Of a stretch of DNA of 64,000 nt, positions 37,880 through 41,989 are shown in pieces (within the stretch, counting starts at the first letter, position 1; every line of letters begins with the position of its first letter). The notes under the pieces were generated by a model. That model was not told the origin of the DNA, did not search any database, and was given only the letters and a program-made list of their open reading frames with translations. The DNA is from a virus, in IMG/VR virus record IMGVR_UViG_3300020222_002168, positions 1 to 64,000 of that record; one strand, given 5' to 3'. Position numbers and translations under genes: made by a program.

Positions 37880-37960
37880 TGGTGCCCCTAATCGGATTCG
37901 AACCGATAGTTATGACACTCCTTTTGAGAGAGCCGCCTTTACCTATTTGGCCATAGGGGC
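37880..37960 (-). tRNA. tRNA-Leu(CAA), intact copy 1
   Basis: Acceptor GCCCCTA/TAGGGGC; anticodon arm GCTCT, loop CTCAAAA, GGAGT; T-arm ATCGG/CCGAT; encoded CCA. Compact variable arm for a leucine tRNA. Confidence 0.85.
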
Positions 37961-37964
37961 ATAC

Positions 37965-38042
37965 TGGAGTGAGGAGTCGGATTCGAACCGACGGCTTTAG
38001 AGTTTTGCAGACTCTTGCATTGGGCCTCTCTGCCACACTTCC
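37965..38042 (-). tRNA. Chimeric tRNA-Cys(GCA), copy 1
   Basis: Body and anticodon (loop CTGCAAA) equal the intact copy at 38655, but the 5' acceptor GGAAGTG is that of tRNA-Ser(TGA) and cannot pair with the 3' strand TCCTCAC. The junction is the shared TGGCAGAG of the two D-arms. Probably not functional. Confidence 0.7.
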
Positions 38043-38569: not shown

Positions 38570-38650
38570 TGGCCTCCCCGGTAGGAATCGAACCGATAGT
38601 TATAACACTCCTTTTGAGAGAGCCGCCTTTACCATTTTGGCCATAGGGGC
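38570..38650 (-). tRNA. Chimeric tRNA-Leu(CAA), copy 2
   Basis: 5' two-thirds match the intact copy 1 (acceptor GCCCCTA, loop CTCAAAA), but after the T-loop the sequence switches to CCTACCGGGGAGG plus CCA, which pairs with neither its T-stem nor its acceptor. The fitting 3' end (CCGAT, TGGGGGC) is found at 38051-38072. Confidence 0.7.
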
Positions 38651-38654
38651 GTTC

Positions 38655-38732
38655 TGGAGCAACGGGTGAGATTCGAACTCACGGTTTTAGAGTTTTGCAG
38701 ACTCTTGCATTGGGCCTCTCTGCCACCGTTGC
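38655..38732 (-). tRNA. tRNA-Cys(GCA), intact copy 2
   Basis: Acceptor GCAACGG/CCGTTGC perfect; anticodon arm AGAGT, loop CTGCAAA, ACTCT; T-arm GTGAG/CTCAC; encoded CCA. Confidence 0.9.
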
Positions 38733-38778: not shown

Positions 38779-39387
38779 CTAATCTACGATAGGGCCATTA
38801 CCGCTGCGGAAACCTATTTCGCCACCTTCCTCTTGGATACGCTTTATGACATCTTCGAATAAGATTGGTGCGAAATCGGGAGTTTGTTCTACACAGACAC
38901 AATGGTATCTAGGATCGATCTCATCGCTGTACAAAACAGCACCCGTTCTGGCATCAACTCCGCGGGCTTTCTTTACACGGTTGGCGTGTAAGTGTCCGTG
39001 AATGTTGGTACCGAAGCGACCCAAACTGTCACTGTGTACAGGAATGTGTGACAAGATCATTCCATTCATCACATGGTAAGCACGTAACTCACGGAAGTAT
39101 TCGCGGTATTCGTCATCACGAAAGATATCGTGATTACCGCGGATCAAAACCTTATCACCGTTCAAACGAGCCAAGGTTTTCATAGCCTTACGATTGATCA
39201 CCACATCACCGAGGTGGTAGACCTTGTCTGTGGGCTTAATCCTGTCGTTCCAGGCCTTGACCATGGCTTCGTCCATCTCATCTGGATCTGTCCAAGGTCT
39301 TAACTTCGTTACTCCGTCATTTCGAGTGAATCGGCACACGCCAGCGTGTCCGAAGTGCGTGTCCGATACTAAAAATACGCTAGGCAT
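38779..39387 (-). CDS. Calcineurin-like metallophosphoesterase
   Basis: About 202 residues from MPSVFLVSDTHFGHAG; longer in-frame codons upstream are tRNA sequence, and AAGGAGG sits 5 nt before this ATG. Metal motifs of the family: DTHFGH, LGDVV, RGNHD, SHIPVH and HGHLH in order. Expected to hydrolyse phosphodiesters or phosphomonoesters (cyclic nucleotides, RNA ends). Similar phage enzymes are common beside tRNA arrays; RNA-end repair is only a guess. Confidence 0.85.
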   Translation of the reverse strand: MPSVFLVSDTHFGHAGVCRFTRNDGVTKLRPWTDPDEMDEAMVKAWNDRIKPTDKVYHLGDVVINRKAMKTLARLNGDKVLIRGNHDIFRDDEYREYFRELRAYHVMNGMILSHIPVHSDSLGRFGTNIHGHLHANRVKKARGVDARTGAVLYSDEIDPRYHCVCVEQTPDFAPILFEDVIKRIQEEGGEIGFRSGNGPIVD

Positions 39388-39408
39388 CATGCCCTCCTTT
39401 CTTGAATG

Positions 39409-39483
39409 TGGCGTACCGGGAAGGATTCGAACCCTCACTAGCAGTTTTGGAGACTGTCGTGCTGCCGTTGACACTACCGATAC
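39409..39483 (-). tRNA. tRNA-Trp(CCA)
   Basis: Acceptor GTATCGG/CCGGTAC; anticodon loop CTCCAAA; T-arm GAGGG/CCTTC; encoded CCA. Confidence 0.88.
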
Positions 39484-39489
39484 ATAAAA

Positions 39490-39584
39490 TGGTACTCCCA
39501 CTAGGATTCGAACCTAGATCATCCCCTCATCTAGAGGCATCGCCCGGATATAAGCCGGGAGCTTTACCGTTAAGCTATGGGAGC
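39490..39584 (-). tRNA. Type II tRNA with TAT anticodon (Ile, AUA)
   Basis: All arms are regular: acceptor GCTCCCA/TGGGAGT, D-arm GCT/AGC, anticodon arm CCCGG, loop CTTATAT, CCGGG, T-arm CTAGG/CCTAG, CCA. The variable arm is about 25 nt with a CCTC/GAGG hairpin, which is normal for Leu, Ser or Tyr tRNAs and not for Ile. Amino-acid identity is therefore open. Confidence 0.85.
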
Positions 39585-41653: not shown

Positions 41654-41728
41654 TGGCGGTCCCAACGGGAGTCGAACCCGTCCCTGCGCCGTGACAGGGC
41701 GCTATACTAACCGATATACTATGGAACC
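41654..41728 (-). tRNA. tRNA-Asp(GTC)
   Basis: Acceptor GGTTCCA/TGGGACC; anticodon arm with loop CTGTCAC; T-arm ACGGG/CCCGT; encoded CCA. Confidence 0.92.
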
Positions 41729-41866
41729 ATTAAGTGATAGCACGGTTTACTATCCTCTTGCTACCTGATGTTGGCAGATTATATCTGCCGTTTACCGGTA
41801 TCACAGGCTTCCCGCTTCGGACAAGGTTGGGATTGATCGATCCCTACGAGCCATGCTATCACTTAA
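41729..41866 (-). ncRNA. Structured RNA filling the tRNA-Tyr/tRNA-Asp gap
   Basis: About 138 nt exactly between the CCA of tRNA-Tyr and G1 of tRNA-Asp. Ends form a perfect 13-bp stem (TTAAGTGATAGCA with TGCTATCACTTAA). Inside: hairpins GGGAT/ATCCC and GGCAGAT/ATCTGCC (7 bp, 3-nt loop) plus a CTT-CCG/CGG-AAG stem. It would be cut free by tRNA processing. T4's tRNA region encodes similar stable RNAs of about 120-140 nt of unknown role. Confidence 0.75.
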
Positions 41867-41952
41867 TGGTGGATGCGGTAGGACTCGCACCTACGATGTT
41901 TCCCTGTCACGGTTTTACAGACCGCTGCCTTCGCTGCTCGGCACACGCATCC
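41867..41952 (-). tRNA. tRNA-Tyr(GTA)
   Basis: Type II. Acceptor GGATGCG/CGCATCC; anticodon arm GCGGT, loop CTGTAAA, ACCGT; long variable arm. The T-loop is TGCGAGT rather than TTCGAGT. First tRNA after the main promoter. Confidence 0.9.
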
Positions 41953-41960
41953 AGTGAAAA

Positions 41961-41989
41961 ATTATAACACTCTCCCGCTATGCTGTCAA
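41961..41989 (-). promoter_or_regulatory. Perfect sigma70 promoter for the tRNA array
   Basis: Minus strand TTGACA (41984-41989), 17-nt spacer, TATAAT (41961-41966), 8 nt before tRNA-Tyr. Confidence 0.9.

Follow-up and report, generated by a model that had tools for sequence, protein, structure and literature searches.

There is debate over why large phages maintain long tRNA arrays, which tend to be interpreted as nothing more than sets of tRNAs. One such array, in a viral record of 99.5 kb (IMG/VR record IMGVR_UViG_3300020222_002168), contains a gap between tRNA-Tyr and tRNA-Asp and raises the question of whether that gap encodes an RNA of its own. We analyzed positions 1 to 64,000 of the record, the whole stretch being referred to here as the window.

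The gap between tRNA-Tyr and tRNA-Asp

ARAGORN placed 22 tRNA genes in the window, all on the minus strand. The predicted ends of tRNA-Asp and tRNA-Tyr, at 41728 and 41867, leave a gap of exactly 138 nt (41729-41866), in agreement with an earlier note, made from the sequence alone, that had placed a new structured RNA precisely there. Because both flanking tRNAs lie on the minus strand, this is the RNA strand to consider. The features of the locus, in the direction of transcription, are as follows.

41961 to 41989, minus strand: predicted sigma-70 promoter TTGACA-17-TATAAT, a 12/12 consensus match, just upstream of tRNA-Tyr
41867 to 41952, minus strand: tRNA-Tyr (gta; ARAGORN), directly upstream of the structured RNA
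41729 to 41866, minus strand: structured RNA, 138 nt, 5' end at 41866, filling the tRNA-Tyr/tRNA-Asp gap
41654 to 41728, minus strand: tRNA-Asp (gtc; ARAGORN), directly downstream of the structured RNA

Given the position of the promoter, transcription of the operon would yield tRNA-Tyr and the window RNA first.

Several other features of the array were recorded. A tRNA-Leu(CAA)/tRNA-Cys pair is duplicated (37880-38038 and 38570-38732; 89.5% identity over 143 bp), and a tRNA-Ile with anticodon TAT (39490-39584) is unusually long at 95 nt, similar long forms being present in related arrays. A second likely small RNA lies at 42391-42183 on the minus strand, where a perfect sigma-70 promoter (42391-42363) is followed by a strongly folded region of ~175 nt (z = -6.1) that ends, at about 42219-42183, in a GC-rich hairpin and TTTTTTT. 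Another phage contig, L672, carries a homologue of it (78%, over q43-171), and Rfam has no match. Upstream of tRNA-Tyr, at ~42093-42016 (minus strand), a stem-closed stretch of ~78 nt, GTAGTAAAATG...CATTTTACTAC, resembles short stem-closed inserts of related arrays.

A long terminal helix closes the element

The perfect 13-bp terminal stem that the earlier note had described was confirmed: 13 Watson-Crick pairs form inside the gap, followed inward by U.G, G-C and G-C, and four more pairs extend outward through the tRNA ends to give 17 uninterrupted Watson-Crick pairs. The minimum free energy of the 138-nt element on the minus strand was -52.5 kcal/mol (z = -4.98, with no shuffle folding as well); a repeat with 500 shuffles gave z = -5.54. 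The 106-nt interior alone was only marginal (z = -1.83, p = 0.044), so that the folding excess comes mostly from the terminal stem. From one sequence, therefore, the closing stem is established, whereas the inner hairpins are not; the fold of the interior rests on alignment.

Homologues occupy different slots in other tRNA arrays

Scans of viral contigs with 14- and 20-mers of the 138-nt element yielded no homologue; the 14-mer matches were due to chance, most lying outside tRNA arrays and one contig (L551) having no tRNA. A ClpP-neighbour search likewise gave no homologue, a single-sequence model found no member among 100 array loci, and in annotated phages a blastn search with the element matched the flanking tRNAs alone. 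A phosphoesterase gene located within the array (38779-39501) gave access to closer relatives, whose whole contigs were then searched.

Full-length homologues (E values from 8e-32 to 2e-11) were found in this way in the tRNA arrays of other contigs. L658 is 81% identical to the window element and sits between tRNA-Glu and Leu; L659 and the identical L660 (78%) sit between Leu and Val; and L661 (74% over the matched part) sits between Thr and Ser. A further contig, L465, starts inside the element, its first 50 nt matching the 3' end of the window copy at 49 of 50 positions, and runs into an identical tRNA-Asp (75/75), the next tRNAs being far more diverged. When L658 and L659 were compared with the window array by BLAST, the matches consisted of the element plus those tRNA ends that pair; DNA next to them did not align. 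The fact that the element aligns and its immediate flanks do not implies that it is a discrete unit found in varied tRNA-array slots.

The window copy, L658, L659 (= L660) and L661 at full length, together with the partial L465, share a five-helix fold with compensatory changes, conserved loops and a location in tRNA arrays, and we refer to them as family W. Its carriers are the window phage, its near-twin (L002, which is 99.9% identical and adds no comparative information), L465, and the contigs of L459, L461, L469 and L503, with an identical element in those of L459 and L461. No Rfam 15 family matched the window element (cmscan of the window at the gathering score and of the region to E 5), L661 had no Rfam match either, and at the sensitivity of blastn the annotated-phage collection contained no family W member.

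Compensatory changes support five helices

RNAalifold, applied to an alignment of the four full-length sequences, independently recovered all five helices. In window coordinates, and all on the minus strand, they are as follows.

41851 to 41870: P1 5' arm, with 41866-41851 in the gap and 41870-41867 forming the ACCA end of tRNA-Tyr
41726 to 41745: P1 3' arm, with 41745-41729 in the gap and 41728-41726 forming the 5' end of tRNA-Asp
41829 to 41844: P2 hairpin, GGGAU/AUCCC in the window copy
41819 to 41824: P3 5' strand, UUGUYC, pairing with 41755-41750 (RNAalifold and pair counts)
41750 to 41755: P3 3' strand, GRAUAG; C-G and U-A alternate in P3
41764 to 41807: P4 and P5; P4 pairs 41807-41804 with 41767-41764 and closes P5
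41789 to 41783 with 41779 to 41773: P5, closed by P4

The comparative data therefore give an interior made of the P2 hairpin and one arm in which P3, P4 and P5 stand in series. The earlier note had proposed at least three internal hairpins; internal helices are indeed present, but as one hairpin and a serial arm rather than as three independent hairpins. A T-loop-like hairpin (CUUG-UYCRAAG-CGGG) in the conserved middle was also considered and rejected in favor of a longer P3, in which Y51 and R118 covary and constrained energies are lower.

In this structure 97.0% of the alignment cells pair, compared with 84.5% after shuffling and 25-49% when partners are slid, and both sides change in 16 of 42 pairs, compared with 0-2 in the slid controls; none of 500 shuffles reached these values, which come from four full-length sequences whose shared lineage can inflate pair counts, the shuffles leaving ancestry in. 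Two-sided changes affect 6 of the 19 pairs of P1, which reads CCAUUAAGUGAUAGCAUGG, CCAUUUAGUAGUAGCAUAG or CCAUUAGUUAGUAGCAUAG with a complementary 3' arm in each case. P2 is GGGCU/AGCCU, GGCCU/AGGCU or GGGCC/GGCC in the relatives, P3 is UUGUCC/GGAUAG or UUGUUC/GAAUAG, and P4 is CCUG/CAGG or CCUA/UAGG. P5 has four different sequences, that of L659 being one column off in register in the alignment and read by eye. Read on the plus strand, the G.U alternatives (GC/GU, UG/UA) would become A.C, which argues that the minus strand is the functional one. Unpaired columns are invariant in 48 of 61 cases (79%) and paired columns in 45 of 84; the conserved loops are AGCUCGU, RAAGCGGGAAG, UGAUAC and GGUAGCAAGA. 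The compensatory changes that the earlier note had named as a check on its proposal are thus present in the stems among four phage sequences, and we consider covariation evidence from an alignment of this size to be good, but not final.

Two further explanations of the locus bear on this evidence. The window copy contains a 17-codon open reading frame with an AUG start, and the folding could be incidental to a short coding sequence. We regard this as scarcely credible: no small open reading frame is conserved in the family W relatives, where the AUG of the longest AUG-initiated frame is AUA, neither start nor frame is kept, and insertions or deletions break the frame. The element could also be a small self-folding mobile or degenerate element of no function, such as an inverted-repeat insertion or a decayed tRNA; its inverted-repeat ends and its presence in different gaps look element-like, and some other stem-closed inserts carry tRNA T-arm-like sequence. 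Compensatory changes and invariant loops point to purifying selection, however, no second copy was found within the 99.5-kb record, and neither ARAGORN nor Rfam gave a tRNA or tmRNA model match inside 41729-41866 (a permuted-tmRNA hit of 14.8 bits, against a cut-off of 47, lay half inside tRNA-Tyr), so that we hold this explanation to be very improbable. The window element is almost certainly a real, conserved structured RNA.

A second RNA family in the same niche

Related contigs were also fetched through a 241-amino-acid open reading frame inside the array, and their inter-tRNA gaps were folded. Several of these gaps were closed by long helices, which led us to suspect a class rather than a lone oddity. 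Two of the gaps, in L014 and L027, share the motif CTGATATAACT, and a gapped pattern derived from them retrieved IMG/VR homologues. The resulting family A comprises at least 66 distinct members with a P1 of at least 15 bp, mostly in tRNA arrays.

L346:3215-3366, L302:5747-5901 and at least 64 others: family A, RNA of ~150 nt

Family A has the core CUGAUAUAACU, the P2 loop GACG and a covarying terminal helix of 17-23 bp. Among the members listed, a P1 arm lies within 6 nt of a tRNA end in 55 of 66, 97.2% of alignment cells pair (71% with 3' letters shuffled, 37-43% with partners slid), and two-sided changes occur in 36 of 45 pairs, with covariation along the whole of P1. Several sequence types of P2, P3 and P5 occur interchangeably in these members, a pattern suggestive of recombining modules. 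Rfam 15 held no matching family, representatives had no blastn match in annotated phages, and in bacterial genomes none of 56 pattern hits scored as a member.

Like the window element, family A has a covarying terminal helix that usually abuts a tRNA, a P2 hairpin near the 5' side, and a similar size and genomic niche; its core and topology differ. By eye the window element seemed a likely member (P2 loop GATCGATCAATC versus GATCTGATCAATC), but the covariance model rejects it. The window element does have a long covarying P1 between tRNA genes, and the family A model R1 scored it at 16.1 bits through P1 only, its interior reaching at most 1.3 bits, compared with 61-69 bits over the whole model for divergent true members. 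Both the core and the GACG loop are absent from the window element, and a family A sequence profile gave no hit there. Family W was absent from 50 contigs of family A phages and from ~90 further contigs, family A was absent from the contigs carrying family W, and no contig searched with both models held the two together; since the contigs are fragments, this is only a hint of mutual exclusivity.

Stem-closed inserts (at least 14 Watson-Crick pairs enclosing a loop of 30-300 nt) numbered 161 in 108 array-bearing loci, 79 of them belonging to family A. Flush stems of at least 10 bp were present in 13 of 289 gaps without family A and in none of the shuffles. The following were recorded alongside these counts, the first, third and fourth groups being among the inserts outside family A.

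L027:3872-4098, L299:2137-2368, L395:7568-7811 and others: stem-closed group of 220-245 nt, typically after tRNA-Glu, with conserved pieces including CCAGTAGGT and CACGAAA
L476:1208-1446, L490:747-984, L494:290-527, L526:1032-1276: separate stem-closed group of ~240 nt near tRNAs, with conserved CCATGTTRGGC...GACWATAGAAGC
L378:7738-7816, L345:6609-6686, L384:2425-2518 and others: inserts of 65-125 nt with a nearly constant stem CCATATAAAAACACATT...AATGTGTTTTTATATGG and unrelated interiors, some with tRNA T-arm-like sequence
L363:5600-5698, L374:5396-5492, L356:9274-9373: a few tRNAs (His, Asn) whose acceptor stems extend into a helix of ~20 bp formed by leader and trailer
L003:6641-6840, L014:5727-5945, L241 Tyr/Asp gap: stretch found repeatedly between tRNAs and marked by a conserved GACAGGG(Y)AACAACTCA-like segment
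L004:419-879, L124:8669-9037: permuted tmRNA genes on viral contigs, predicted by ARAGORN

Comparison with known phage RNAs

The nearest known RNAs in place and size are RNA C and RNA D of T4, the stable RNAs of species 1 and 2, whose function is still called unknown (PMC9697503). Like the window RNA, they are small RNAs within a phage tRNA cluster and next to a tRNA; in T4 (AF158101) RNA C is 139 nt and RNA D 119 nt, beside tRNA-Arg. RNA C differs in having separate hairpins and a tRNA T-arm-like 3' end without a long flush terminal helix, and RNA D folds no better than chance. The earlier note had seen no evident match to either, and indeed neither of the covariance models built here, R3 and R1, matched rnaC or rnaD (AF158101), the best score being 6.9 bits to a short stem-loop.

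GOLLD and ROOL, two structured RNAs of unknown function, are encoded by phages and prophages, frequently close to tRNA islands, and GOLLD often exceeds 800 nt (PMC12286853). Both are several times larger than the window element, and cmscan with the Rfam models of GOLLD (RF02032) and ROOL gave no match to the window element or to L661. A GOLLD RNA (194 bits) with tRNA-Lys inside was observed at L014:8964-9424, in a related phage tRNA array. In the open-access literature searched, we found no description of family W, of family A or of the stem-closed class.

Release and possible role

Given the flush ends of the predicted RNA, release by tRNA processing is plausible. The consensus promoter ahead of tRNA-Tyr would drive transcription of both tRNA-Tyr and the RNA. 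RNase P cleavage where tRNA-Asp begins, together with maturation of the tRNA-Tyr 3' end, would free the RNA, after which the long, nearly blunt P1 helix would shield it from exonucleases. Not every family member is placed for flush excision on both sides: the P1 3' arm stops 9-12 nt short of the next tRNA in two relatives, and the P1 5' arm begins ~70 nt past the previous tRNA in one. For the window RNA itself, processing into a discrete, stable RNA is quite probable.

The terminal helix could also serve its neighbors. Long helices formed by sequences that flank a mature RNA unit are familiar as the processing stems of bacterial rRNA operons, and P1, which is likewise a long helix formed by flanking sequences, might hold the tRNA-Tyr 3' end and the tRNA-Asp 5' end together for accurate cleavage by RNases, the interior being filler. 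P1 is flush with both tRNAs and able to pair with their ends, and many array gaps have long flush stems that enclose unrelated interiors. Unlike the rRNA stems, however, the window helix sits between tRNAs and encloses a conserved, covarying interior; it is the interior that is most conserved, with P2 to P5 covarying and 79% of the unpaired columns invariant. The same interior recurs between different tRNAs, and most neighboring tRNAs of the array are processed without such an insert. Because the interior is conserved, a purely cis-acting role accounts for P1 but not for what it encloses, and we think such a role unlikely.

We lean instead toward a trans-acting function, beyond tRNA maturation alone, as a fairly probable one. 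On balance we favor the reading that the gap is a gene for a noncoding RNA that represents a new structured family and is cotranscribed with the tRNAs, excised and then trans-acting. Most likely, the stable RNA would present its conserved loops to a protein or RNA partner, for which a host factor or host defence is our first guess. A rival proposal is that it protects tRNAs or counters defence, as a decoy or inhibitor of host nucleases that attack tRNAs or of another abortive-infection system. An RNA of this kind would arrive together with replacement tRNAs, as its location in a tRNA array would allow, and the patchy, modular distribution and the occupation of the same niche by several unrelated RNA families are consistent with it; the element resembles no known inhibitor RNA in sequence, and we regard this proposal as rather improbable.

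Two independent families supported by covariation, and many stem-closed inserts between tRNAs, lie outside Rfam and the annotated-phage collection searched. With them, the puzzle of T4 RNAs C and D becomes open to comparison, there being dozens of examples, loops whose conservation makes them targets for mutation, and covariance models ready for use. They also offer a simple, testable route of biogenesis in which tRNA-processing enzymes excise the RNA and its helix caps it. We tentatively suggest that phage tRNA arrays may serve broadly as a platform from which many trans-acting RNAs, unrelated to one another, are delivered, each carried as a helix-capped cassette between tRNAs, freed by tRNA processing and used against or instead of host functions. 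On this view the window RNA and family A would be two alternative occupants of such a platform.
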